This document shows, piece after piece, positions 1 to 37,495 of a stretch of 44,588 bases of DNA. Numbering within the stretch: position 1 is the first letter of the stretch; each line of letters begins with the position of its first letter. Source of the DNA: a bacterium (GTDB taxonomy: Bacteria > Desulfobacterota_D > UBA1144). The stretch is taken from assembly GCA_002708105.2 (NCBI GenBank), contig PAOQ02000012.1, positions 8,141 to 52,728 of the forward strand, given 5' to 3'. The notes beneath the pieces are model-generated. The model ran no database searches, had not been told where the DNA came from, and was given only the letters and a program-made list of their open reading frames with translations. A program made the translations under genes and the position numbers.

Positions 1-470
1 AGGGTATCTGCAGAGTCTTCTATGACAACTAGGTCGTATTTATCCGCAAGTGCTCTAATTTCTTCCCAGTTACATATATTACCCATTAGATTTGGAGCAA
101 TAATTGCAACAGTGTTGTCATTTATTGATTGTTCAATCTGAGAAACATCAATACAATAAGTTAATGGTTCAACGTCAACAAAAGAGGGAATAAGATCATT
201 TTTTAGCAAACAACCTACCGTTGTTCCAAAAGTTAGTGCTGGAGTTATAACTTCACTTCCTTTAGGGAAGTCTAGGGACTCAATTCCAATAAAAAGAGCA
301 GATGAGCCTGAGTTTACATATAAACAATGTTTTTTTTCAAATAGTTTTGCTATTTTTGATTCAAATTGCCTTGCATAATTACCCATCTGGGTTGATTCAT
401 TTAAGCATTTAACAACAGCATCAATTTCTTCTTGTCCGTAGACAGTTTTTGCGTATGAGATTTTATCCAT
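1..470 (-). CDS. DegT/DnrJ/EryC1-fold enzyme, RfbH-like (partial, 3' end off window)
   Basis: The reading frame starts at ATG 470 and stays open to base 1, giving 156 codons of an N-terminal half. The translation has the PLP-fold hallmarks of the DegT family: GSSAL near residue 55, a TPALTFGTTVG block, FVDVEPLTYCID, and IIAPNLMGN followed by ADKYDLVVIEDSADTL. The last part resembles RfbH (CDP-4-dehydro-6-deoxyglucose 3-dehydrase: TLGN, then ADKYNLWLIEDCCDALG) more than ordinary sugar aminotransferases, which usually read EDAAHA or EDAAQA. It lacks the roughly 30-residue N-terminal extension of Salmonella RfbH. The residue that separates the two classes (His in RfbH, Lys in aminotransferases) lies beyond the edge. 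rfbF, rfbG and rfbE 7-10 kb away support the dehydrase reading. The family is sure; the reaction is inferred. Confidence 0.7.
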   Translation of the reverse strand, partial: MDKISYAKTVYGQEEIDAVVKCLNESTQMGNYARQFESKIAKLFEKKHCLYVNSGSSALFIGIESLDFPKGSEVITPALTFGTTVGCLLKNDLIPSFVDVEPLTYCIDVSQIEQSINDNTVAIIAPNLMGNICNWEEIRALADKYDLVVIEDSADT

Positions 471-588
471 TTTATTATTTACAATTAAAAAAAAGTATTT
501 TTATATCTTTATGTTATATAGAACACATAAAAAAGTCAAAGATCATAGATAATTAAAACAAAGCTAGTTTTTTTTATTGTCTATGCTA

Positions 589-5837: not shown

Positions 5838-7067
5838 TTATAGATTCTCTTTTTTAATACCTTTAATACAAAGAATATAGATTAAAACTATTACTGGGTA
5901 AATAAAATAGTTATCTCCACTAATGACATAAAAGCCTAGAACTAATATATTAAAAGATTGAACAATGAGTTTGGAATCTAATATATTAAATAGATTTTCC
6001 ATTGAATCTTTAAAGAACGAGCTATTTATTAGATAAAAAGCGGGAAGTGAAAAAAGTATCATGTCATATTGCTTTAATCTTGGTATTATCATTAACGTCG
6101 CAATAAGTGCAATCGAAACTTTTAGTTTTTTATCAGATAGTAAATCCTTAGATAGAGTTTTTAATCTTAATGAATATGTTTTTAAAAAAACTAACAATAT
6201 TAGGATTATATAAAAAACATAATCAAGAAAAAATTTTCCCTTTTCCATTGCATTTTGATTTACTTCCCAATTATGTCTTCCTGAACTAAAACTATCAGTT
6301 AGATTAAGAATATTTGAATTTAAATAATTGATCACTTGCAAAGAACCTACACCCATGTCACCTACATATGGCAGAATTTGAATATTAGATTTCAACAGTT
6401 CAAACTCGATAGGGTAGAGATATTTATTAGTTAAAATCATTAAGAAGGGCATTGGTAATAATATAAATATTTTTCTAATCTCACTTGTAGGAATAATAAC
6501 TAGAGGAACCATTATAAATAAAATCATGTGAATTTTAAAAAGACTTGGGATAGTTATTAAGATTAAACCGAATGTTATGAGATTTCTTTTCCCTGAAAAT
6601 GACATCAATATTCCTGCTGCCGTTATAGCATATAGAATGTTTGAGATGTTCCCTGATAAATATCCATAGAAGGGTATAGCACTAAAACTGAAGAGCGAAA
6701 TTAATAAACAATTTAAAAAAGTAAAGTCTGTATAAATCTTTGATAAAATAAATATAATTAAAACAATTGATGCAGATAATAAGATTAGCCATATTATTTG
6801 AAAAATTTCTTGGGAGACAAAACTAAAGTCTAACAGTCTTAAATATATTGGTAAGTATACAAATTTGAAGTCAGAAAGGTCTTTTGAACATTCTATAAGT
6901 TTCCCATAACCACTACCTTGTTGATTAAAAATCAGTGGGCCACAATAGTAAACCATAGTATCCCAGAATAGATCTTTTGAGGTAGTAATATTTTTATAAA
7001 TTCTGAAGTAAAGAGATGATAATACAGCAGATAATATAATAAGCCTTAAAAAAAATGAATTGTTCAT
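5838..7067 (-). CDS. polytopic membrane glycosyltransferase, GT87/DUF2029-like (paralog of 4483-5802)
   Basis: A 409-residue multi-helix membrane protein. The first loop reads LFWDTMVYYCGPLIF, matching the WDAYVYMCG loop of the next gene downstream, and PRLKQYDMILFSLPAFY matches its PRIKVYDSLFVIPI. Length and helix count fit a GT-C fold enzyme using a polyprenyl-linked donor. It is divergent from rfbF with only 43 bases between start codons, so the two directions share a promoter region. It heads a two-gene unit with the paralog downstream. The substrate is unknown. Confidence 0.7.
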   Translation of the reverse strand: MNNSFFLRLIILSAVLSSLYFRIYKNITTSKDLFWDTMVYYCGPLIFNQQGSGYGKLIECSKDLSDFKFVYLPIYLRLLDFSFVSQEIFQIIWLILLSASIVLIIFILSKIYTDFTFLNCLLISLFSFSAIPFYGYLSGNISNILYAITAAGILMSFSGKRNLITFGLILITIPSLFKIHMILFIMVPLVIIPTSEIRKIFILLPMPFLMILTNKYLYPIEFELLKSNIQILPYVGDMGVGSLQVINYLNSNILNLTDSFSSGRHNWEVNQNAMEKGKFFLDYVFYIILILLVFLKTYSLRLKTLSKDLLSDKKLKVSIALIATLMIIPRLKQYDMILFSLPAFYLINSSFFKDSMENLFNILDSKLIVQSFNILVLGFYVISGDNYFIYPVIVLIYILCIKGIKKENL

Positions 7068-7110
7068 TTATATATTAAATCCTTGTAGTATTATATCCTA
7101 TAGATTCGTT

Positions 7111-7878
7111 ATGAAATGTGTAATTCTAGCAGGCGGTAAAGGGACAAGATTAAGCGAAGAGACCCAAGAAATCCCTAAGCCTATGATTGAGATTGGAAAT
7201 AGGCCAATATTGTGGCATATAATGAAGCATTATTCTAGCTTCGGGATAGATGAGTTTATAATATGTACCGGTTATAAATCAAACTATATCAAAAATTATT
7301 TCGTTAACTACAAAGTTAATAATTCTGTAATACATGTTGATATAAAAGATAACTCTGTAAAAGTAGATTCTGAGGTAAAAGAAAACTGGAAGATATCAAT
7401 AATTGATACAGGCTTAGAAACAAATACTGCTGGAAGAATTAAAAAAATAGCAAAATATATCCCTGAGGAAAATTTTTTGTTGACTTATGGAGATGGTGTT
7501 GGGAATGTTGATATAAAGAAAACTATTGATTTCCATATGAAACATAAGAAGATGGTAACTATGACTGCAGCAATCCCAGAAGGAAGATTTGGATCTATAA
7601 CTTTTAAAGGGAATAGGATATCAACTATAAAAGAAAAACAGGATAACTCTGATAAGTTTGTGAATGCAGGTTTTTTTGTTATTAATAAGGAAGCTATTAA
7701 ATTCATAAAAAATTCAAATGAGCAGTGGGAGAAAGCCCCATTAAAAAAAATAGCTGCTTCTGGGAATTTGATGGGCTATAAACATTTAGGCTTTTGGCAT
7801 CCTATGGATACAATAAGAGACAAAGTTTACTTAGAGGAACTTTCAAAGCTTAAAAATCCACCTTGGAAAACTTGGTAA
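7111..7878 (+). CDS. rfbF: glucose-1-phosphate cytidylyltransferase
   Basis: Makes CDP-glucose from CTP and glucose 1-phosphate, the entry step to CDP-3,6-dideoxyhexoses. The 255-residue protein starts with the nucleotidyltransferase signature LAGGKGTRLSEET followed by IPKPMIEIG. It keeps the RfbF-specific blocks LLTYGDGVGNVD (metal-binding Asp), PEGRFG, FVNAGFFV and GFWHPMDTIRDK. Length is normal for RfbF (about 257). The frame is open back to a codon at 7060, but ATG 7111 gives the canonical N-terminus (MKCVILAGG). It heads a tight six-gene operon running to 13221; rfbG starts 3 bases after its stop. Confidence 0.95.
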   Translation: MKCVILAGGKGTRLSEETQEIPKPMIEIGNRPILWHIMKHYSSFGIDEFIICTGYKSNYIKNYFVNYKVNNSVIHVDIKDNSVKVDSEVKENWKISIIDTGLETNTAGRIKKIAKYIPEENFLLTYGDGVGNVDIKKTIDFHMKHKKMVTMTAAIPEGRFGSITFKGNRISTIKEKQDNSDKFVNAGFFVINKEAIKFIKNSNEQWEKAPLKKIAASGNLMGYKHLGFWHPMDTIRDKVYLEELSKLKNPPWKTW

Positions 7879-7880
7879 TT

Positions 7881-8951
7881 ATGAACTTAAAAAAATTTTA
7901 TTCTGGTAAGAGAATTCTTGTCACTGGTCATACTGGTTTTAAAGGAGCCTGGTTGTCTTTGATTCTAAACGAGTTTGGAGCCAAAGTTTATGGGATATCG
8001 CTTAAGCCCGAGGATTTAAGAGGAAATTTTTATAATATCATTAAATTAAAAAAGAAGATTAAGTCATATTATGTAAACCTATCCGATTATAAAAAATTAA
8101 ATACCACAATTAAAAAGATAAAACCTGAAATTATATTTCATCTTGCAGCTCAACCATATGTAATAAGATCTTATAAAAATCCTATCGAAACAATTCATTC
8201 CAATATTGTTGGAATCTCCAATTTGTTAGATATTTGTAGGGAGATTAAATCTGTTAAATATTTTTTAAATATAACTACTGACAAGTGTTATGAGAATGAT
8301 GACAGTAAGAAGCCATTTGTAGAGTACGACAGGTTAGGTGGAAAGGATATCTATTCATCTAGTAAAGCATGTTCTGAAATCTTAACTAATGCTTTTTTTG
8401 AAAGTTTTCTTAAGGAAAAGATTAAAATGGGAACATCAAGAGCTGGAAATGTTATAGGTGGCGGGGATTTTGGTGAAGATCGATTAATTCCTGATATTTT
8501 TGAATCCGTCATGGAGAAGAAAAGACTTATAATTCGAAATCCAGACTCTGTAAGACCATGGCAGTATATATTGGATGTACTTAATGGGTACATGATGCAG
8601 GTTTTTTATTTAAGCAAAATTAAATCTAATTCTTTGTCATCATATAATTTCTCTCCTGTTCAAAAAGATATTGTAACTGTAAAAGAAATTGTCGATTATA
8701 TATCAGATTATTTTAGTTTTAACAAAGTTAGGTTTTTAAGAGAGAATAAAGGTTTTACAGAATCTAAGAATCTTCTATTAAATTCTAAGAAAGCAAATAA
8801 AGATTTAGGGTGGAAAAATAAATATAAAACTATGGGCGCAATTGATCAAACGATAAAGTGGAATGAAGTCTACTATTCTGATTGTAAAGAAATAGAAAAA
8901 TTTTCAATTAAAATGATCAAAGATTTTTTTAAGTTATCAAATGAAAGATAA
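7881..8951 (+). CDS. rfbG: CDP-glucose 4,6-dehydratase
   Basis: Converts CDP-glucose to CDP-4-dehydro-6-deoxyglucose. The 356-residue SDR has the RfbG start GKRILVTGHTGFKGAWLS, HLAAQPYVIRSY, the catalytic TTDKCYEN and YSSSKA (Tyr-x3-Lys), and the diagnostic AGNVIGGGDFGEDRLIPD and SVRPWQYILD blocks. The frame is open to 7863, inside rfbF, but ATG 7881 fits the family N-terminus. It overlaps the next gene by 11 bases. All key residues are present. Confidence 0.95.
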   Translation: MNLKKFYSGKRILVTGHTGFKGAWLSLILNEFGAKVYGISLKPEDLRGNFYNIIKLKKKIKSYYVNLSDYKKLNTTIKKIKPEIIFHLAAQPYVIRSYKNPIETIHSNIVGISNLLDICREIKSVKYFLNITTDKCYENDDSKKPFVEYDRLGGKDIYSSSKACSEILTNAFFESFLKEKIKMGTSRAGNVIGGGDFGEDRLIPDIFESVMEKKRLIIRNPDSVRPWQYILDVLNGYMMQVFYLSKIKSNSLSSYNFSPVQKDIVTVKEIVDYISDYFSFNKVRFLRENKGFTESKNLLLNSKKANKDLGWKNKYKTMGAIDQTIKWNEVYYSDCKEIEKFSIKMIKDFFKLSNER

Positions 8952-10838: not shown

Positions 10839-11527
10839 TGAAGTATTCTATTTTAATCCCAAGTTACGATGAGTATGAGAATCTAAAAATCTTAGTTCCC
10901 CAGATTATTAGTGTAATAGCTAATGAGTCGGAATCTTATGAAATAATTTTAATTGATAGAATGAATAAAGATGAAGACACTTTTCAATTAGCCTTAAAAT
11001 ATAATATTAAATATATTCAAAGAAAGGGTGGGGACAGATATGGTGATGCTGTAAGATCCGGTATCAGTGAAGCTACAGGGAAAACAATTCTTTTTATGGA
11101 TGCAGACGGTTCTCATAATCCTAATGAAATTTTAGATTTATGTAAATTTTCTAATTCTTTTGATTTAGTTGTTAGTTCTAGATACATAGGATGTTCCAAA
11201 AGTGAGAACACTTTTTTGAAACAGCTAGGATCAATCTTTTTAAATAAGCTTTGTAGAATTCTTTCTAAAATTGAATGTACTGATTTTTCCAATAGCTTCA
11301 AAGCATATAATGGTAATTTACTTAGAAAGCTTAGCTTGCATTCAAATGATATAGATATTATTGAAGAGATTATATTTAAATTAGTACGATTGGAAGGAAA
11401 TCTTACTATACGTGAGATTCCAGGAGATTTTCGTAAAAGGATTAATTATGAATCTCGTAGGAAGCCTTTTGTATACTTTTTATCCTATGTAAGAACTTTA
11501 TTTAGATTAAAATTCATGGAGAAATGA
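10835..11527 (+). CDS. GT2 family glycosyltransferase, DPM1-like without membrane segments
   Basis: A 230-residue GT-A fold enzyme starting ILIPSYDEYENLK and carrying the metal-binding DADGSHNP (DxD) with the preceding RYGDAVRSGI. This is the layout of dolichyl/polyprenyl-phosphate sugar synthases. The usual first Asp pair (DDGS) is replaced by IDRM, the same odd region that is altered (VDSC) in its paralog at 36052-36753. It shares TDFSNSFKAY with that paralog's SDWSGSFKMY. No C-terminal membrane helices are present. It overlaps rfbE and the membrane glycosyltransferase downstream by 4 bases each. It could load a sugar on polyprenyl phosphate for that partner, or act directly with CDP-tyvelose. 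Confidence 0.8.
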   Translation: MMKYSILIPSYDEYENLKILVPQIISVIANESESYEIILIDRMNKDEDTFQLALKYNIKYIQRKGGDRYGDAVRSGISEATGKTILFMDADGSHNPNEILDLCKFSNSFDLVVSSRYIGCSKSENTFLKQLGSIFLNKLCRILSKIECTDFSNSFKAYNGNLLRKLSLHSNDIDIIEEIIFKLVRLEGNLTIREIPGDFRKRINYESRRKPFVYFLSYVRTLFRLKFMEK

Positions 11528-27559: not shown

Positions 27560-28240
27560 ATGGCTAAAAGAGTTTTATTGATTGGTGAAAAAAGTGATAT
27601 TGGGAAAGGAATAAAAAATTCTTTAAAAAAGGGTGGGTATTCCATTGATGGCACATCATCAAAAACCCTAGATTTATCATCTAGAGAATCTGTCGATAGT
27701 TTTTTGTCTAAGAGTGATAAAAAATATGACTCAATAATTTTTGTAGCTGCTTCAAATATTCCGAAAAATTTCATGAAACTTAAAAGCCAAGACTTTGACG
27801 AATCGATTGATATTAATTTTAAATCCTTTGTTCTAATCCTGCGAACACTTATAAAGAAAATGCCCAAGAATAGTAATTCATCAATTGTTATAATTTCATC
27901 TCTTTTTGCGTCATCTGGTAGAAATGGTAGGTTTTTATATTCTAGTTCTAAGCATTTCCTAAATGGGGCAATGAAAAACTTGGCAATAGAGCTTGGTTCC
28001 TCAGGGATTCGAGTTAATAGTATAGCTCCGGGATTTATAGATACTAAAATGACTCGTAATAATAATTCTAAAGATAGTCTTAAGAAAATTATTAAAAAAA
28101 TACCTATTGGTCGACTAGGGAATCCTAAGGATATTGCTAATTTAGTTTTATTTTTATTATCATCAAAAGCAGCTTATATAACAGGTCAAGAATTAATCGT
28201 AGATGGTGGTATAACTGCTGGAGGATTTTGGGAAGACTAG
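27560..28240 (+). CDS. classical SDR oxidoreductase (FabG-like fold)
   Basis: A 226-residue short-chain dehydrogenase. The cofactor motif is altered at its start (IGEKSDIGKGI in place of TGxxxGIG), while the catalytic Ser (IISSLFASSG), YSSSK and the closing AYITGQELIVDGG are intact. RVNSIAPGFIDTKM is typical of FabG-like enzymes. It is the first gene of a three-gene unit: its TAG stop is followed at once by the ATG of the cyclase. In that setting it probably oxidises or reduces a cyclitol or keto-sugar made by the next enzyme, rather than acting in fatty acid synthesis. The substrate is unknown. Confidence 0.82.
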   Translation: MAKRVLLIGEKSDIGKGIKNSLKKGGYSIDGTSSKTLDLSSRESVDSFLSKSDKKYDSIIFVAASNIPKNFMKLKSQDFDESIDINFKSFVLILRTLIKKMPKNSNSSIVIISSLFASSGRNGRFLYSSSKHFLNGAMKNLAIELGSSGIRVNSIAPGFIDTKMTRNNNSKDSLKKIIKKIPIGRLGNPKDIANLVLFLLSSKAAYITGQELIVDGGITAGGFWED

Positions 28241-29389
28241 ATGGAGCAGTTTTATATTGATAATAAAAAGTTTAATTTTCGAATTAAAAGAAGTAAAAAT
28301 TTTGAAAAGATTATTAAAATTAATTCTTCACCCAGAAATTATGAGTTAGAAATAATTCATAAATCTATTCCCGCTTCTATTAATAAAGCAATTAAAACCA
28401 CTGAGAAGCCAGTCCTACTAATAGATTCAAATATATATAAAATATATGGTTCTAAAATATTGAAGAGAAATGTTTTAATTTATAAGTTTAATGCAAAAGA
28501 AAGTAATAAAAATCTTATCGAGTGTATAAAATTCACTAATTTTCTTGAGAAAAATAATATTAATAAATCGTCTACTGTAATTGTTATAGGCGGTGGTATT
28601 GTGCAGGATGTGGGGGCTTTTTCTTGTTCTATTTACAAGAGAGGAATAAAATGGATTTATTTCCCTACAACCTTATTATCTATGACTGATAGTTGTATAG
28701 GAGGAAAGACAGCCTTAAATTATAGAAACATCAAAAACTTATACGCTTTATTTTCTTCACCTCATCACGTCATACTGAATACCCAGTTTCTTTCAACCTT
28801 ATCAAAGAAAGATATATTGTCAGGTTTGGGTGAATCCTTGAAGCTGTCAATAATTGGGGGTGATAGATCTTTAAAAACTTTTTCATCAAATATAGATAAA
28901 GCAATTGCGCTTGATCGAGAATCCATTTCTAAAATAATTTTTAATTCTATATTAATTAAAAAATCCGTAATAGAGAAAGATGAATTTGAAATAAATGAAC
29001 GAAAATCATTGAACTATGGCCATAGCTTAGGAAACGCAATTGAACCGATGTCAAAATTTTATATTCCTCACGGCACAGCAATAACGCTTGGCTTATTAGT
29101 GGAGAATAAAATCGCTGTAACCTCTTTTGGTTTGAGTAAGGGGTCAGATAGACTAATTTTAGATTTGGCAAAAAAGTTAATTTTGCCTAGGTTTATAAAA
29201 AAAATGAGCGAACTTAATTTTTCTTCAATTAATAAGTATTTAATTAATGACAAGAAAACAAAAGGTAAAATCCTGAAAATATCCGTACCAACTAAGATTG
29301 GAAGAATAAGCTTTTGTAAACTAACTCTTAATAATACATCTATTAAAACTATTAAAAATTCTGTCAAATTACTTATAAATGAGCTCTAA
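28241..29389 (+). CDS. sugar phosphate cyclase, 3-dehydroquinate-synthase-like
   Basis: A 382-residue member of the NAD-dependent sugar phosphate cyclase family. Visible motifs: GGGIVQDVGAF (117-127), FPTTLLSMTDSCIGGKTALN (141-160), GLGESLKL with the metal-ligand Glu198 and Lys201, NYGHSLGNAIE (258-268) and HGTAITLG (His277). The three expected zinc ligands (Glu198, His261, His277) are present. The second His of the usual GHTxGHA motif is Asn265. An N-terminal extension of about 35 residues precedes the fold. Context (FGGY kinase, SDR, NeuB-like, TPP enzyme) is unlike a shikimate aroB gene, so it more likely cyclises another ketose phosphate or ulosonate phosphate. The gene abuts the SDR and overlaps the kinase by one base (TAATG). 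Confidence 0.85.
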   Translation: MEQFYIDNKKFNFRIKRSKNFEKIIKINSSPRNYELEIIHKSIPASINKAIKTTEKPVLLIDSNIYKIYGSKILKRNVLIYKFNAKESNKNLIECIKFTNFLEKNNINKSSTVIVIGGGIVQDVGAFSCSIYKRGIKWIYFPTTLLSMTDSCIGGKTALNYRNIKNLYALFSSPHHVILNTQFLSTLSKKDILSGLGESLKLSIIGGDRSLKTFSSNIDKAIALDRESISKIIFNSILIKKSVIEKDEFEINERKSLNYGHSLGNAIEPMSKFYIPHGTAITLGLLVENKIAVTSFGLSKGSDRLILDLAKKLILPRFIKKMSELNFSSINKYLINDKKTKGKILKISVPTKIGRISFCKLTLNNTSIKTIKNSVKLLINEL

Positions 29390-30681
29390 TGTCTAAATTT
29401 TTATTAATTGATTATGGAGCTTCAAGAATCAAATCAGCATTATATAATGATGTAAATCAATTACCTGCTGGGTTATTTGAATCAGTGGGTTCTTTTTTAA
29501 AATTTGGAAATTCAACAAAAATAGAAAGCTCTTTTTTTTCAGATTCATTAATTCTTCATTTAGATTATTACTCAAATAAAATTAAAGAATTAAATGTTGA
29601 CGATAATCTTAAAATCTATATATGTTCAGAAATGCATGGATTTAGTTTGATTCCGAATAATAGTACTATTGAGAACTTTTACTATAGTTGGAGGTTCCAT
29701 CATGTTAATACTAATTCCGCATTAGAAGTATTAGATAAAAATAATTTTTTAAAAAATACATCGATGACGTTAAGAGCAGGTCTCCCGGTAGTTAATGTAT
29801 TAGCAGAATATTTATCTAATACCTTAAATGAAAACTGTTCTTTTTTAACATTACCTCAATTAATATGTAATGATCTTGGAGAACAATATAATCATGTATG
29901 TAAAACACTTCTTCATTCGAGTGGTTTTTATTCAAATTTGGGAGAGACTGAAAATTCTTCTTTAATAACCGGCTACGATTTATCGATAACTTTTCCAAAG
30001 GTGTTAGATGATTACAGTCAACCGATAGGCTTAGTGAATTATCAAAATAATGAATACAATATGTATTTTGGTTTTGGCGACCTCCAGGCTGCTTTTATTG
30101 GTTCAGATATTAATGACAATCAAATATTAATCAACATAGGAACTGGTTCTCAAATTATTTCAAATTCATCCAATCAGTCCTCTTTTGGATTAGAAGAAAG
30201 ACCCTTTTTTAACAATCAAAAGTTAAAGTGTGTAACCCATATTCCTGCAGGAAGATTTCTAGATTCTTGGTGTAAGTTCTATAATAATCTGAATAAAACA
30301 AATAACTTTTGGACTGAACTTTCAATCTTAAATTTAAATGATTTTAAAAACGAATTGATTCATATTGACTTTGATTCTTTTTTAGAAACTAAAAGCTCAT
30401 CCTTTATTAAAATTGATCGCTTAATCTCTGAAAATAGTGGAATTACAAATAAAAATATACTCGCATCATTAGTTAAATCGTTTGCAGACCAATATTTAGG
30501 TTATTTAAGAAATGCTGTGCATGAGGATGTCGAGATAGTCCTAGGTGGTGGAGTCCCAAGTAGTATTCCTGTGCTAGAGGATCTTATTAGTGAAGGTTTA
30601 ACAAGAGAGGTTAAGATTTTAAAAAACAATAATGACCTAACTCTTAAAGGTCTAAGAGCCTTTTTAATTAAAGGATTCTAA
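29389..30681 (+). CDS. FGGY-family carbohydrate kinase, sedoheptulokinase-like
   Basis: A 430-residue ATP-dependent sugar kinase. N-terminal phosphate loop IDYGASRIKSA (7-17), second phosphate site INIGTGSQI (248-256) and adenosine-site VLGGGVPSS (384-392) are in order. The stretch GDLQAAFIGS (230-239), just ahead of GTGSQI, resembles the GD-x-QA pattern I recall from sedoheptulokinases rather than the GGGDN of xylulokinases; this is a memory-based hint. It would phosphorylate a ketose, possibly a ketoheptose for the cyclase encoded immediately upstream, or the cyclitol product. Its start overlaps the cyclase stop (TAATG). Its end is 4 bases from the end of the convergent NeuB-like gene. Confidence 0.82.
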   Translation: MSKFLLIDYGASRIKSALYNDVNQLPAGLFESVGSFLKFGNSTKIESSFFSDSLILHLDYYSNKIKELNVDDNLKIYICSEMHGFSLIPNNSTIENFYYSWRFHHVNTNSALEVLDKNNFLKNTSMTLRAGLPVVNVLAEYLSNTLNENCSFLTLPQLICNDLGEQYNHVCKTLLHSSGFYSNLGETENSSLITGYDLSITFPKVLDDYSQPIGLVNYQNNEYNMYFGFGDLQAAFIGSDINDNQILINIGTGSQIISNSSNQSSFGLEERPFFNNQKLKCVTHIPAGRFLDSWCKFYNNLNKTNNFWTELSILNLNDFKNELIHIDFDSFLETKSSSFIKIDRLISENSGITNKNILASLVKSFADQYLGYLRNAVHEDVEIVLGGGVPSSIPVLEDLISEGLTREVKILKNNNDLTLKGLRAFLIKGF

Positions 30682-30685
30682 TGTT

Positions 30686-31795
30686 CTATTTTTTTTTATA
30701 ACCTCTATTTTCTATCTTCTTTCTTAGTCTTTTGTCAGTACTATATGGTCCATCGATATGAAATATAGATAGGATTTCATCTTTTTTTATCCCTTTTGTA
30801 AGCTTGACGTCATTTATTATTTCATTACAAGATATTTGGCCTTTGTTTAAAGGTATTGATAAATAGAAATCTTTTTGAAAAGAATCCTTACTAAACTTAT
30901 AGCCTTTTTTTATATCTCTTTTTGCATAAATTCCTCTAGCTAGAGAATCTAAGTAAGTTCTTTCTTTTTTTGATATCGATCTTCTTGAGTCAATCGGCCC
31001 CTCTAACATTTCTTTTGCTTTAAAATATGATTTGAACCATTCATCTATTTGATTTGGCAAGGAGCAATATTTTGATACTTGGTAATCACCATCATCAATA
31101 TCAATATGTCTTTCCCATGTTCTTGCTCCTAGTGCAAAAGATAGAAGCATGGATGATGACCAATCATTATATTCATGTGATGAAAAACCGATTGTGTTCT
31201 TTGGATACCTGTCTCTAAGATAAGTAATCTGATTTAGTGCTAAATCAGAATCTTCTGTTGGATATAATGAAATACAGTGGTTTAAAGCTAGCGGTATATT
31301 TCTATTGGCAAAGAACTTTACTATATTATCTAAATCGATTTCTTGAGCACCACCGGTTGAAACTATGGTTGGTTTTTTTAGCTCACCAATTTTTTCTATA
31401 AGAGGCCAATCAGTGATATCAGCACTTGCAATTTTAACAAGATCTAAATCAAAATTTTCTACAGTTTCAACTGATTTTTCATCGAAAGGTGTAGACATAG
31501 TGAGAGCACCAACTTTTTTTATTTGATCAATCAATTTTTTTAAATTTTTGGTTGATAAAAAAGTTTGGTTTGTTTTATTTATATATCTAATATCATCATT
31601 GTTTTTGTATTCATTATGTATAAAAGTTTTAGGGTCTCTGAATTGTAATTTTATTGCCGCTCTAACTCCATTTTCTCTAACCACTCTACCGTAGCTATTT
31701 ATTATTTTTATACCTCTATCCACAGAGCCCCAATGATTATTTGCCATTTCTAGAACAAAAAGGTCATTAAAAATCTGGTTTTCTTTAATTGGCAT
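30686..31795 (-). CDS. NeuB-like PEP-dependent synthase (N-acetylneuraminate synthase family) with SAF domain
   Basis: NeuB enzymes condense phosphoenolpyruvate with an aldose to give a nonulosonate-type acid. This 369-residue protein has the fold markers: EMANNHWG (Glu16, Asn20, His21), IKLQF, VKIASADITDW (120-130), VSTGGA, NHCISLYPT (172-180), GFSSHE (203-208) and ERH (228-230), then an antifreeze-like SAF domain from about residue 284 (SLARGIYAKRDIKKG). Several positions differ from NeuB, LegI and PseI: Trp22 after NNH, TWERHID for the usual IEKHF. The substrate is probably not plain ManNAc. No cytidylyltransferase (NeuA) for a nonulosonate is in the window. It is divergent from the TPP enzyme. 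Confidence 0.85.
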   Translation of the reverse strand: MPIKENQIFNDLFVLEMANNHWGSVDRGIKIINSYGRVVRENGVRAAIKLQFRDPKTFIHNEYKNNDDIRYINKTNQTFLSTKNLKKLIDQIKKVGALTMSTPFDEKSVETVENFDLDLVKIASADITDWPLIEKIGELKKPTIVSTGGAQEIDLDNIVKFFANRNIPLALNHCISLYPTEDSDLALNQITYLRDRYPKNTIGFSSHEYNDWSSSMLLSFALGARTWERHIDIDDGDYQVSKYCSLPNQIDEWFKSYFKAKEMLEGPIDSRRSISKKERTYLDSLARGIYAKRDIKKGYKFSKDSFQKDFYLSIPLNKGQISCNEIINDVKLTKGIKKDEILSIFHIDGPYSTDKRLRKKIENRGYKKK

Positions 31796-31853
31796 AAAAT
31801 AATTTTATATTTTTAAATCTATAATACAACAAGGTAAAAAAAACTACTTTGTG

Positions 31854-31859
31854 TATAAT
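31854..31859 (+). promoter_or_regulatory. -10 element TATAAT before the TPP enzyme
   Basis: GTGTATAAT ends 11 bases before ATG 31871, with no Shine-Dalgarno. The 75-base gap also carries a TATAAA on the minus strand 8 bases before the NeuB-like start (31795), so this is a compact two-way promoter. Confidence 0.4.
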
Positions 31860-31870
31860 TGTTTTTGAAA

Positions 31871-33631
31871 ATGAAATATAGCAATCTATTAGCAAAATGG
31901 TTAAGAAAATTGAACTATACGCACTGTTTTTATGTACCTGGGGGTAACATAATGCATTTGTTAGATAGTTTTAGGGATAATTTTAAGTGCATACCAGTCG
32001 TACATGAAGTTGCTGCAGGTATAGCTGCTGAATATTTCAATGAAACTTCAAAAGAAAATTTTAAAGCATTAGCCCTAGTAACTGCTGGACCAGGACTGAC
32101 AAATATTGTTACTGCAATCGGTGGTGCATTTCTTGAAAGTAGAGATGTTTTGATTATAGGTGGCCAAGTTAAGACTGATAATCTTTCAAATGGAAAAGTT
32201 GTTCAAAGAGGAATTCAAGAAATCGATGGTGTTTCCGTTGTAAAACCTATTACGTCCAAAGCTCTGAGAATTAATAAGCCAATAGGTTTCCATAAAATAA
32301 AGTCTATTTTAGGGATTAATAAAATTGAAAGAAAAGGGCCAGTTTTTCTAGAAATACCTTTAGACGTTCAAGGAGCCAATTTTGTAGATAAAAAAAATAA
32401 ACAAATAGAAGTTAAGAATCAAAGAAAACAGACCACTCAGATACAAATAAAGAAAATTGTAGGCATAATTAGAAAATCTAAAAGACCATCAATATTGATT
32501 GGGGCTGGAGTTAGCAGACATGTTGCTTATAATTTAAGAAAACAATTAGCCAAGCTGGATATTCCTATTTTTACTACTTGGAATGGAATGGACAGGATTT
32601 CTCCAAAAAACAAAAATTATTTTGGAATTCCAAATACTTGGGGTCAACGACACGCTAATATTATTATTCAGCAATCTGATTTACTTTTAGCCCTAGGAAC
32701 AAGATTAGGATTACAACAAACTGGATTTAACTGGAAAGAGTTTCTTCCTGTGGGAGACATAATACAAATTGATATAGATTCTAGAGAGTTAAAAAAAGGA
32801 CACCCTAAAGTTAAATGGCCTTATTGCTTTGACGTTAATCACTTTCTTCCTCTATTGTTAAAGCATAATCTTGGAGTATATCCAGAATGGTTAAAGTTTA
32901 GTGCAAAAGTAAAAAATGCTTTTCCACTTATTGATAAAGGTAATCAAACCAAAGATAAATTTTTATCTCCTTATTTAGTAATTAACGAGGTATCTAGAAT
33001 TTTAAAGAAAAATGATGTTGTTGTACCATGTAGCAGTGGTGGGGTATTTACTGCATTTAAGCAAGCATTTGTTCCTAAGTTTGGTCAAAGGATAGTCTCA
33101 AATAAAGGTCTTGCTTCCATGGGGTATGGGCTTTCTGCAGCAATTGGAGCAGCATTCTCTAATAATAAAAAAAGAATAATTCACTTTGAAGGGGATGGTG
33201 GGTTCTCTCAAAATATTCAAGAAATTGGTACTATGATAGTTAATAATCTAAATATTAAATCTTTTATATTTGATGATTCAGGATATGCATCAATTAGAAT
33301 GACACAGAAAAACTACTTTCATGGTAAATATATGGGATGTGATATTAAAAGCGGATTAGGACTTCCTAATTGGGAGAAGCTATTCGCAGCATGGAACATA
33401 AAGGCTATAAGATTAAAGAAAGATTTTATAAACAATAAAATTTTTATTAAACATATGAATCAAGTCGGACCATCTGTATTTATAGTTCCCACAGATCCTG
33501 AACAAACTTATTTTCCGAAGATACAAAGTAGAGTAACTAAATCTGGCTCAATGGAATCTAATCCAATTCATATAATGACTCCTGAATTAACTAGCAAGGA
33601 GATGGAAGCTTTCTTTAAATATTTAAAGTGA
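31871..33631 (+). CDS. TPP-dependent enzyme, acetolactate-synthase/YerE-like
   Basis: A 586-residue thiamine diphosphate enzyme of the acetolactate synthase large-subunit fold. Catalytic Glu46 lies in VVHEVAAGIAAEY, followed by TAGPGLTNIVTA, a central FAD/NAD-like domain (about 190-320) and the TPP/Mg motif GDGGFSQN (441-448) with DDSGY. FLEIPLDVQGA is typical of O-antigen-associated relatives such as YerE, which adds a pyruvate-derived two-carbon unit to a CDP-4-keto-sugar. No ilvN small-subunit gene follows, arguing against branched-chain amino acid synthesis. ATG 31871 is chosen over the upstream TTG 31859 because of the TATAAT spacing. It probably forms a C-C bond in an unusual sugar or cyclitol; the acceptor is unknown. 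Confidence 0.82.
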   Translation: MKYSNLLAKWLRKLNYTHCFYVPGGNIMHLLDSFRDNFKCIPVVHEVAAGIAAEYFNETSKENFKALALVTAGPGLTNIVTAIGGAFLESRDVLIIGGQVKTDNLSNGKVVQRGIQEIDGVSVVKPITSKALRINKPIGFHKIKSILGINKIERKGPVFLEIPLDVQGANFVDKKNKQIEVKNQRKQTTQIQIKKIVGIIRKSKRPSILIGAGVSRHVAYNLRKQLAKLDIPIFTTWNGMDRISPKNKNYFGIPNTWGQRHANIIIQQSDLLLALGTRLGLQQTGFNWKEFLPVGDIIQIDIDSRELKKGHPKVKWPYCFDVNHFLPLLLKHNLGVYPEWLKFSAKVKNAFPLIDKGNQTKDKFLSPYLVINEVSRILKKNDVVVPCSSGGVFTAFKQAFVPKFGQRIVSNKGLASMGYGLSAAIGAAFSNNKKRIIHFEGDGGFSQNIQEIGTMIVNNLNIKSFIFDDSGYASIRMTQKNYFHGKYMGCDIKSGLGLPNWEKLFAAWNIKAIRLKKDFINNKIFIKHMNQVGPSVFIVPTDPEQTYFPKIQSRVTKSGSMESNPIHIMTPELTSKEMEAFFKYLK

Positions 33632-36051: not shown

Positions 36052-36753
36052 TTAACTTACTCTAAGCTTTATTAAAGTTAAGAAGAAATCTAGATATGTC
36101 TTTAATTTCCTTTTTGTTTTTCCATGAACCCTAGTATCAAAAGTGTATGGAACCTCTTTGATCTTATTTGTATTATTTAGCTTGGTTGCTTTGTAAACAA
36201 TCTCTGGAATTATATCAAAATTCTCAGAATGTAAATTAATTGTCTTTAAAAGTTTTGTCTCGTACATCTTAAAACTACCAGACCAGTCAGAACAGTTTAC
36301 TCTTAGAATCAATGAGTAAACAAGGTTTAATAGTTTAGACAAGAAAATTGACGTAACCTTATCATTTGTTTTACCACCATCGCAATATCTAGAAGCTATA
36401 CATATCCCGTTATCATTAATTTCTTCTATTATTTTAGGAATTAATTTCGGATTGTGAGAACCATCAGCATCCATGAACAATGTAAATTCTTTTGATATTG
36501 TTTTTATTCCAGTTTTCACAGCATTACCATAATTATCTTTTCCGATAGTATTTACATATGAAACTTTTTCAAATTTTGAACAAACTTCGGGAGATTCATC
36601 CATCGGAACACAGCTATCTACAATAATAATTTCATAGTCGATTCCCGTGGGAGTCATACTTTCAATAATTTGAGGGAGTAAAAACTTCAGGTTCTCTGCT
36701 TCCTTTAAGCATGGGATGACAATATTTAATGATTTCAATTTATTTTCTTTCAA
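36052..36753 (-). CDS. GT2 family glycosyltransferase, DPM1-like (paralog of 10835-11527)
   Basis: A 233-residue GT-A enzyme: IVIPCLKEAENLK, NYGNAVKTGI, LFMDADGSHNP (DxD) and CSDWSGSFKMY. It lines up with the GT2 of the rfb operon along its length, including replacement of the nucleotide-site DDGS (here VDSC). It has no C-terminal membrane helices. Its start lies 14 bases inside the end of the nucleotidyltransferase-cupin fusion gene, so they are co-translated and probably act in one pathway, perhaps transferring the sugar that the fusion protein activates. Confidence 0.8.
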   Translation of the reverse strand: MKENKLKSLNIVIPCLKEAENLKFLLPQIIESMTPTGIDYEIIIVDSCVPMDESPEVCSKFEKVSYVNTIGKDNYGNAVKTGIKTISKEFTLFMDADGSHNPKLIPKIIEEINDNGICIASRYCDGGKTNDKVTSIFLSKLLNLVYSLILRVNCSDWSGSFKMYETKLLKTINLHSENFDIIPEIVYKATKLNNTNKIKEVPYTFDTRVHGKTKRKLKTYLDFFLTLIKLRVS

Positions 36754-37495
36754 TATCCTCTTCTATACATTCTTTGCCGTATTGTACTTCCACAACTATG
36801 AGTTCCTCTGATGTGTTATTTATAAGTTGATGCCATTGATTTACTGCTATATCAAAATGTTCAAATGTATTAATGGTGTGCTCAATATCATTTAGTATTA
36901 TGGTTGCAACTCCTTTTATGACAAACCAATGTTCATTTCTATGATTATGTTTTTGATAAGATAGTTTTTGTCCAGGCTTTACAATTAATGATTTCAGTTT
37001 AGCTTTTTGGTTTTTAATATTGAATTCTCTGTATGAATGCCACTCACCCCATGGACGCGGCATAGGAGAATCTCTCCATTTGTCTAGTATATTGCTAGAC
37101 GATTGAGTTTTGCCTCCACCAACATTAAATATTTCATTTACACCATTTTCATTGCAAAATTTGCTTTCAGGTGTTGTTTGTTTATTTCTATCCCCACCAT
37201 TTGCAAAAGATATATTATAATTAGGATATTTCTTTGTTACATCGACAATACCTTGAACAGCTGTTCCGTCATCATCATTAAAATGAATAACGTCGATTAC
37301 ACCATTGATATTCTTGGCTACCGATTCTCTATCTTTCCAATCCATAAAGAAGCTTCCCTTCTTTCTAATTAGCCATTCGTCTGAATTTAGTAGGACTACA
37401 ATATCTCCCAAATCTCTAGCTTCCTCAAACATAGAAATATGGCCAGAATGTATTGGATCGAAGCCTCCAGATAATATTATAATATTTTTGCTCAT
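36740..37495 (-). CDS. nucleotidyltransferase-cupin fusion protein
   Basis: A 251-residue two-domain protein. Residues 1-140 are a cytidylyltransferase-like domain of the HldE-C/TagD type: GGFDPIHSGH (10-19, HxGH nucleotide site), SFFMDWKDR, and NGGDR then GGGKTQSSS as the late signature. Residues 147-250 are a cupin like the C-terminal part of mannose-6-phosphate isomerase type II (ManC/AlgA): RPWG, KLKSLIVKPG, QKHNHRNEHW (181-190, metal His), VNQWHQL, VVEVQYG and a short EEDIERK end. One protein thus appears to combine NTP-dependent activation of a phosphorylated compound with isomerase-like or sugar-binding chemistry. The neighbouring gmd fits mannose metabolism, but the reaction is unproven. 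Translationally coupled to the GT2 downstream. Confidence 0.85.
   Translation of the reverse strand: MSKNIIILSGGFDPIHSGHISMFEEARDLGDIVVLLNSDEWLIRKKGSFFMDWKDRESVAKNINGVIDVIHFNDDDGTAVQGIVDVTKKYPNYNISFANGGDRNKQTTPESKFCNENGVNEIFNVGGGKTQSSSNILDKWRDSPMPRPWGEWHSYREFNIKNQKAKLKSLIVKPGQKLSYQKHNHRNEHWFVIKGVATIILNDIEHTINTFEHFDIAVNQWHQLINNTSEELIVVEVQYGKECIEEDIERK

Follow-up and report, generated by a model that had tools for sequence, protein, structure and literature searches.

The subject here is a five-gene module at positions 27560 to 33631 of a 44,588-nucleotide stretch of contig PAOQ02000012.1 (assembly GCA_002708105.2, a bacterium of the Desulfobacterota_D lineage UBA1144), which as a whole is referred to as the window. 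The module encodes a short-chain reductase (SDR), a cyclase (CYC) resembling 3-dehydroquinate synthase (DHQS), a kinase (KIN), a synthase of the NeuB family (NEUB) that depends on phosphoenolpyruvate (PEP), and a carboligase that depends on thiamine diphosphate (ThDP; the enzyme is referred to as TPP). NEUB and TPP form a core pair, and SDR-CYC-KIN is an exchangeable cassette. A preliminary description of this DNA overlooked that division, as well as the characterised YerE-like relatives of the TPP enzyme and the presence of the module in phages. As the best explanation, to which we give an even chance, the module is a C-branched-sugar pathway (NEUB, a YerE-like TPP enzyme and a supply of CDP-4-keto-hexose) that bears a shikimate-like SDR-CYC-KIN cassette. 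The five genes are:

27560..28240, + strand: SDR, classical short-chain reductase (adh_short_C2, E 2e-45)
28241..29389, + strand: CYC, DHQS-like sugar-phosphate cyclase/phospholyase (DHQ_synthase; own clade; DHQS fold)
29389..30681, + strand: KIN, divergent FGGY-fold kinase (Foldseek E 3e-17; motifs GDxQ and NxGTGSQ)
30686..31795, - strand: NEUB, NeuB/SpsE-like PEP-dependent ulosonic acid synthase with a SAF-like C-terminus (PF03102, E 3.5e-39)
31859..33631, + strand: TPP, putative YerE-like ThDP carboligase (TPP_enzyme N/M/C)

The preliminary description gave the coordinates of these genes exactly, including the spacing of 0 bases between SDR and CYC, the 1-base TAATG overlap of CYC and KIN, and the 4 bases between KIN and NEUB. 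Pfam and NCBIfam bear out its assignments of the SDR, the DHQ-synthase family, the NeuB family and the TPP enzyme. TPP starts at the TTG at 31859 or, more likely, at the ATG at 31871. The latter start yields the 75-base divergent gap to NEUB that had been described, but the shared divergent promoter placed in that gap found no support in a promoter scan, where promoter-like sites were fewer than in shuffled sequence (25 versus a mean of 33.8).

The module is real and recurs across lineages, in distantly related bacteria as well as in phages. The host assembly (G000; 0.91 Mb in 24 contigs) encodes two DHQS homologues, CYC in the window and a 360-residue AroB on contig C2, which rules out CYC as the sole AroB of the genome, a possibility the preliminary description had raised against itself. 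Within the host family, CYC and KIN occur together in exactly four of 14 genomes (G000, G010, G011 and G007), and the other ten have neither. The region is syntenic to the contig limits in G010 and G011. G007, of another genus, carries all five genes on one strand in the order TPP-SDR-CYC-KIN-NEUB, so the inverted NEUB is peculiar to the host genus. SDR lies immediately 5' of CYC in the host family and in most cassettes.

A NEUB alignment searched against 84,980 species genomes returned 80 bacterial loci from many phyla, at 52-59% identity. This was the co-occurrence check that had been proposed, and the suspicion that homologues might rarely co-occur was not borne out: a TPP homologue lies near NEUB in 71 of the 80 loci, and SDR and CYC are present in ten. 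KIN was found in all nine of the searched genomes with CYC, the tenth CYC carrier being G007 itself; at one locus (L123) the kinase lies just beyond the fetched flank. Carriers of the cassette include Prochlorococcus, another cyanobacterium, Afipia, Gamma- and Betaproteobacteria and Coxiellaceae. Amantichitinum ursilacus (L050) has NEUB and TPP but lacks the cassette. Across these lineages CYC is only 29-48% identical to the window protein, which excludes a single recent transfer. KIN was also sought around the carriers, in samples from one phylum (399 genomes), one order (399) and one class (369). Among these approximately 1,160 sampled genomes none carries KIN away from NEUB, and the known carriers alone had KIN. 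Plasmids and cultured phages gave no match to KIN; CYC matches in plasmids were AroB and sedoheptulose 7-phosphate (S7P) cyclases only, at less than 60% identity, and the matches to NEUB or CYC in cultured phages were weak or AroB-like only.

Scans of IMG/VR returned 18 contigs with KIN and 46 with NEUB, some of them near-duplicates. TPP is near NEUB in 45 of the 46 NEUB loci, and the SDR-CYC-KIN cassette is present in 21 of these partly redundant loci. All 18 KIN contigs carry NEUB, TPP, SDR, CYC and KIN, almost always in this order and followed by a reductase of cluster c18 (see below). The 210-kb record G1215 (loci L160 and L219) has genes for the major head protein, the portal, a head protease and the large terminase, and an amidase gene lies close to the module; by its hallmark genes it is identified as a tailed phage carrying the module. 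Its head genes are T4-like, and NEUB, TPP, SDR, CYC and a shortened KIN of 316 residues stand among glycosyl and sugar genes. In the L157/L160/L161/L165 group, phage KINs are about 305-316 residues long, more than 80 residues below other KINs. Two further contigs, G1231 (gp23) and G1222 (terminase), have one hallmark match each; they contain NEUB-TPP and lack the cassette. The other viral fragments gave no hallmark match in two scans, and in a fragment such a negative says little for or against a viral origin. Most fragments being hallmark-negative, it is G1215 on which phage carriage of the complete cassette rests. Phage KIN, CYC and NEUB had no match to PHROG.

The division into core and cassette follows from the locus counts. 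Clustering of open reading frames from the 80 bacterial loci identified RfbF, RfbG and RfbH (for CDP-4-keto-3,6-dideoxyhexose), a HAD hydrolase, extended-SDR reductases (clusters c7, c13 and c18) and an FkbM-domain methyltransferase (c4). NEUB-TPP loci are usually accompanied by the CDP-dideoxysugar genes, and NEUB, TPP and CDP-sugar supply can therefore be taken as the core, with SDR-CYC-KIN as the option. FkbM is found in 38 of the 70 bacterial loci without CYC, as against none of the ten with CYC (Fisher p 0.0012, a rough value given that the loci are interrelated). The two are also exclusive in viral loci (Fisher p 0.025, relatedness ignored), and in six of the 46 viral contigs FkbM sits between TPP and c18, without CYC or KIN.

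CYC belongs to a clade of its own. Its best NCBIfam model, as for every CYC tested, is TIGR04425, with 284 bits against a cut-off of 400 (other CYCs 266-317), and it scores 259 bits against the aroB equivalog with its cut-off of 305 (other CYCs 213-269). Phylogenetic analysis recovers cellular and viral CYCs as monophyletic (support 100/99), and the same tree separates them from the AroB clade (99/96) and from annotated S7P cyclases (100/100). For the structural model of CYC (pLDDT 89.5), the first 23 Foldseek matches are DHQS structures, and DOIS comes next.

The active site is of the DHQS type (positions in A. nidulans DHQS numbers). K250, R264, N268 and K356 are kept in every CYC tested. 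The four annotated S7P cyclases have lost all four, with M at K250, D/E/A/K at R264, A/D at N268 and S/A/W/V at K356, and they carry Pro at H275; DOIS, with K, G, E and N at the four positions, has lost three. Among these positions are those that contact the carboxylate in the structure of A. nidulans DHQS. CYC differs from AroB in the Met at 267 and Arg at 197 of many members. Since the DHQS-type residues are kept and the S7P-type ones absent, the simplest reading is that the substrate has a carboxylate next to a ketone, and CYC would act on a ulosonate phosphate and not on sedoheptulose 7-phosphate. Of the two routes outlined in the preliminary description, closure of a ketoheptose phosphate by the cyclase is disfavoured by these residues, and the other, in which the cyclase uses a ulosonate made by NEUB, is favoured by them as a prediction.

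Pfam gave no match to KIN even at a threshold of E=10, no FGGY model was matched up to E 10, and the NCBIfam scores of KIN are at chance level. An AlphaFold model built from a nine-sequence alignment (pLDDT 77.8, pTM 0.79) matches xylulose, glycerol and gluconate kinases in Foldseek (best E 3.2e-17, TM approximately 0.7), with these and further FGGY-type sugar kinases making up the top 50. The GDxQ and NxGTGSQ motifs are invariant in KIN. On the structural matches and the invariant motifs together KIN is an FGGY kinase by fold, so the earlier label stands by structure and not by profile match.

The closest solved relative of NEUB is 3g8r (E 1e-64), and alignment shows that the PEP and metal catalytic motifs of NeuB/PseI are kept. 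Its equivalog scores are 131 of 340 bits for PseI and 118 of 400 for NeuB in NCBIfam, and on these scores it is probably specific for neither pseudaminate nor Neu5Ac. The TPP enzyme has three TPP domains and its best solved relative is 8rph (E 3e-72), which we take to be JanthE. The window enzyme is 75% identical to that of G011, about 50% to actinobacterial NEUB-linked TPP enzymes and 33% to that of G007. It is of a different lineage from the G007 enzyme; the pairing with NEUB persists nonetheless. Compared with loci L022 and L055, the host genus has exchanged its TPP partner for an enzyme from a different lineage, and NEUB, SDR, CYC and KIN have remained orthologous.

YerE-like enzymes join 2-keto acids to CDP-4-keto-3,6-dideoxyglucose, and for two of them, ErwE and MMAR_2332, the preferred 2-keto acids are long and hydroxylated (2025 review, PMC12247030). 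The branch of caryophyllose is a 1,3,4,5-tetrahydroxyhexyl group with CH2 at its second carbon (PMC5706390), the expected remnant of a decarboxylated 3-deoxy-ulosonate. NEUB may well be the maker of long 2-keto acid donors for YerE-like enzymes, a role for which NeuB is unmentioned in PMC12247030.

Building on the gene content, recurrence, folds, carboxylate-type residues and FkbM exclusion observed above, we infer the pathway as follows, including all its substrates, the succession of reactions, the closing of the ring and the sugar finally made. NEUB would condense PEP with an aldose to give a 3-deoxy-2-ulosonic acid, and KIN would phosphorylate the terminal hydroxyl of the ulosonate. CYC, with NAD and metal, would carry out oxidation, phosphate elimination and reduction, most likely closing a six-membered carbocycle to give a dehydroquinate-like keto acid, and SDR would reduce the ketone left by CYC. 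In the same surface-glycan pathway, TPP would form a C-C branch from a 2-keto acid and a 4-keto sugar.

Several points weigh against this pathway. If the ring is closed on the C2 ketone, the ulosonate is no longer fit as a TPP donor, and the NEUB-TPP pairing, the most constant of all, is at odds with a ulosonate consumed by ring closure. One locus (L109) carries the cassette without TPP within 8 kb. At the active site, H275 is Asn in the host genus (and there only) and K197 is Arg in many CYCs. In a published tree, confirmed EVS enzymes sit in a clade that passes for DHQS (PMC5133447), so that the CYC fingerprint is not absolute. We weighed three ways out of the conflict over the ulosonate: two ulosonate fates, as in the best explanation, elimination without closure, or closure after coupling. 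Free ulosonate is favoured by the sequence data as the predicted substrate of CYC; both a closed ring and an open product are compatible with them.

Elimination without closure would make the cassette a deoxygenation system. KIN would phosphorylate the C7 hydroxyl, CYC would eliminate the phosphate to a 6-keto-7-deoxy acid, and SDR would yield a 3,7-dideoxy-ulosonate as TPP donor. This places all five genes in one line, preserves the 2-keto acid for TPP, is consistent with the carboxylate pocket of CYC, and gives a role to the second reductase (EPI clusters c7/c13/c18), which is retained in CYC loci; such a donor would also yield the 1,3,4,5-tetrahydroxyhexyl branch of caryophyllose (PMC5706390). 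We nevertheless consider it unlikely, if the strongest of the alternatives, as the actinobacterial loci with the TPP nearest to that of the window are without CYC, and the DHQS catalytic positions are all retained. The enolpyranose intermediate of DHQS, moreover, cyclises readily and spontaneously, without need of the enzyme.

Closure after coupling is less probable still. TPP would here join a ulosonate-derived acyl group to the CDP-4-keto sugar, with KIN and CYC then making a C-linked cyclitol out of this ketose-like branch. The viral order NEUB-TPP-SDR-CYC-KIN, with FkbM as an alternative in the same slot, suggests such late tailoring, and all genes are used linearly. The substrate would, however, already be decarboxylated, yet the carboxylate-type residues are invariant; a DHQS cleft should not accommodate a CDP-hexose substituent, and the extra reductase would be superfluous. 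Very improbable is the first route of the preliminary description, in which KIN makes a ketoheptose 7-phosphate and CYC closes the ring as in C7-cyclitol pathways. Ketoses are FGGY kinase substrates and a sugar kinase (of the ROK family) is common in plasmid S7P cyclase clusters, but the residues typical of S7P cyclases (Met, Asp/Ala, Pro, no Lys) are absent from CYC, which falls outside the S7P clade, and NEUB would be left idle despite its constant linkage. That an AroB paralogue and unrelated sugar genes are chance neighbours is hardly credible: surface-glycan regions are mosaic and often reshuffled, but the set and its order are nearly fixed in distant bacteria and phage genomes, a separate AroB is present in the genome, KIN was not found outside the set, and CYC identities between lineages rule out a single very recent transfer.

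The surface-sugar context proposed in the preliminary description holds, with RfbF and RfbG in the window and an RfbH-like gene overlapping its left edge. These accessory features are:

7060..7878, + strand: RfbF, glucose-1-phosphate cytidylyltransferase, CDP-sugar supply (TIGR02623, 337 bits, above cut-off)
7863..8951, + strand: RfbG, CDP-glucose 4,6-dehydratase, CDP-sugar supply (TIGR02622, 384 bits, above cut-off)
1..500 (end approximate), - strand: RfbH-like 3-dehydrase, N-terminal part (PRK15407 RfbH, 298 bits, cut-off 423)

The body of the RfbH-like gene (contig C5, 7417-8526; L139) lies upstream of the window, and the protein has His instead of the lysine that binds pyridoxal phosphate, in SFYGSHIINCAGNGG. 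Further upstream (C5, 4631-6439) a second YerE-like TPP enzyme of 602 residues is encoded, with a GT2 glycosyltransferase nearby, so that two YerE-like enzymes occur on one contig of a small genome. In the same surface-sugar region, a transketolase is split into N- and C-halves in two overlapping genes (577-2308), which may form a further system for C-C branching. Six paralogous proteins of about 550-570 residues, membrane-protein-like by eye, are encoded between 11524 and 24520 (at 11524, 14130, 15887, 17683, 20317 and 22871) and are approximately 26-43% identical to one another's counterparts in the syntenic relative. At 36740-37495 a cytidylyltransferase-like domain is fused to a cupin/mannose-6-phosphate isomerase C-terminal domain, in a gene that adjoins a GT2 and a GDP-mannose 4,6-dehydratase.

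More broadly, the module may represent a widespread sugar branch of bacteria and tailed phages, in which a NEUB ulosonate, an FGGY kinase and a DHQS-like clade provide a carbocyclic or deoxygenated unit in C-branched surface sugars. This would amount to a second shikimate-type route, serving glycans and shared by phages, a proposal in which our confidence falls a little short of even. If true, a DHQS-type reaction has been recruited to surface-glycan assembly in distant bacteria and phages, and overlooked sugars are predicted that are carbocyclic or C-branched with a PEP-derived chain; NeuB would be proposed as the source of long 2-keto acid donors for YerE-like enzymes. The cyclase and kinase clade is at present automatically annotated as “AroB” or left blank. 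Phage carriage suggests a role of these sugars at the virus-host surface.

More than 200 YerE-like clusters have been surveyed in silico in work cited by the review PMC12247030. No description of the NEUB pairing or of the SDR-CYC-KIN cassette was found in open papers, including those on bradyrhizose and TIGR04425, with most subscription journals and the survey of YerE-like clusters lying outside the search. Branched-sugar clusters of the YerE type have been described before; the NEUB pairing and the cassette are a new variation on them, and the underlying chemistry may be new as well. With the YerE-type pathways (yersiniose, erwiniose and caryophyllose; YerE, ErwE and MMAR_2332) the module has in common the YerE-like TPP enzyme and CDP-sugar genes of the RfbF/RfbG/RfbH type, to which it adds NEUB, the likely donor maker, and the SDR-cyclase-kinase cassette, both unmentioned in PMC12247030. 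The C7-cyclitol pathways (EEVS/ValA, DDGS) are alike in the sugar phosphate cyclase superfamily and a nearby sugar kinase, whereas the CYC active-site fingerprint and clade differ; we know of no NeuB or YerE-like TPP enzyme in these pathways. TIGR04425, an AroB-related putative sugar phosphate phospholyase (cyclizing), is the best model for the CYCs, all of which fall below its cut-off, and to our knowledge it has no tested function. The aminoshikimate pathway (RifH, RifG, RifN) resembles the module in having a dedicated kinase, a PEP aldol synthase, an AroB-like enzyme and an oxidoreductase, but its kinase is of the ROK family, its synthase enzymes are of the DAHP-synthase type and its context is antibiotic synthesis. 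In the first shikimate steps (DAHP synthase and AroB), as in the module, a ulosonate synthase that depends on PEP precedes a DHQS-like enzyme whose pocket is of the carboxylate type; the module differs in having a NeuB-family enzyme where the shikimate pathway has DAHP synthase, in its separate FGGY kinase, in a cyclase clade that is not AroB and in its surface-glycan context.

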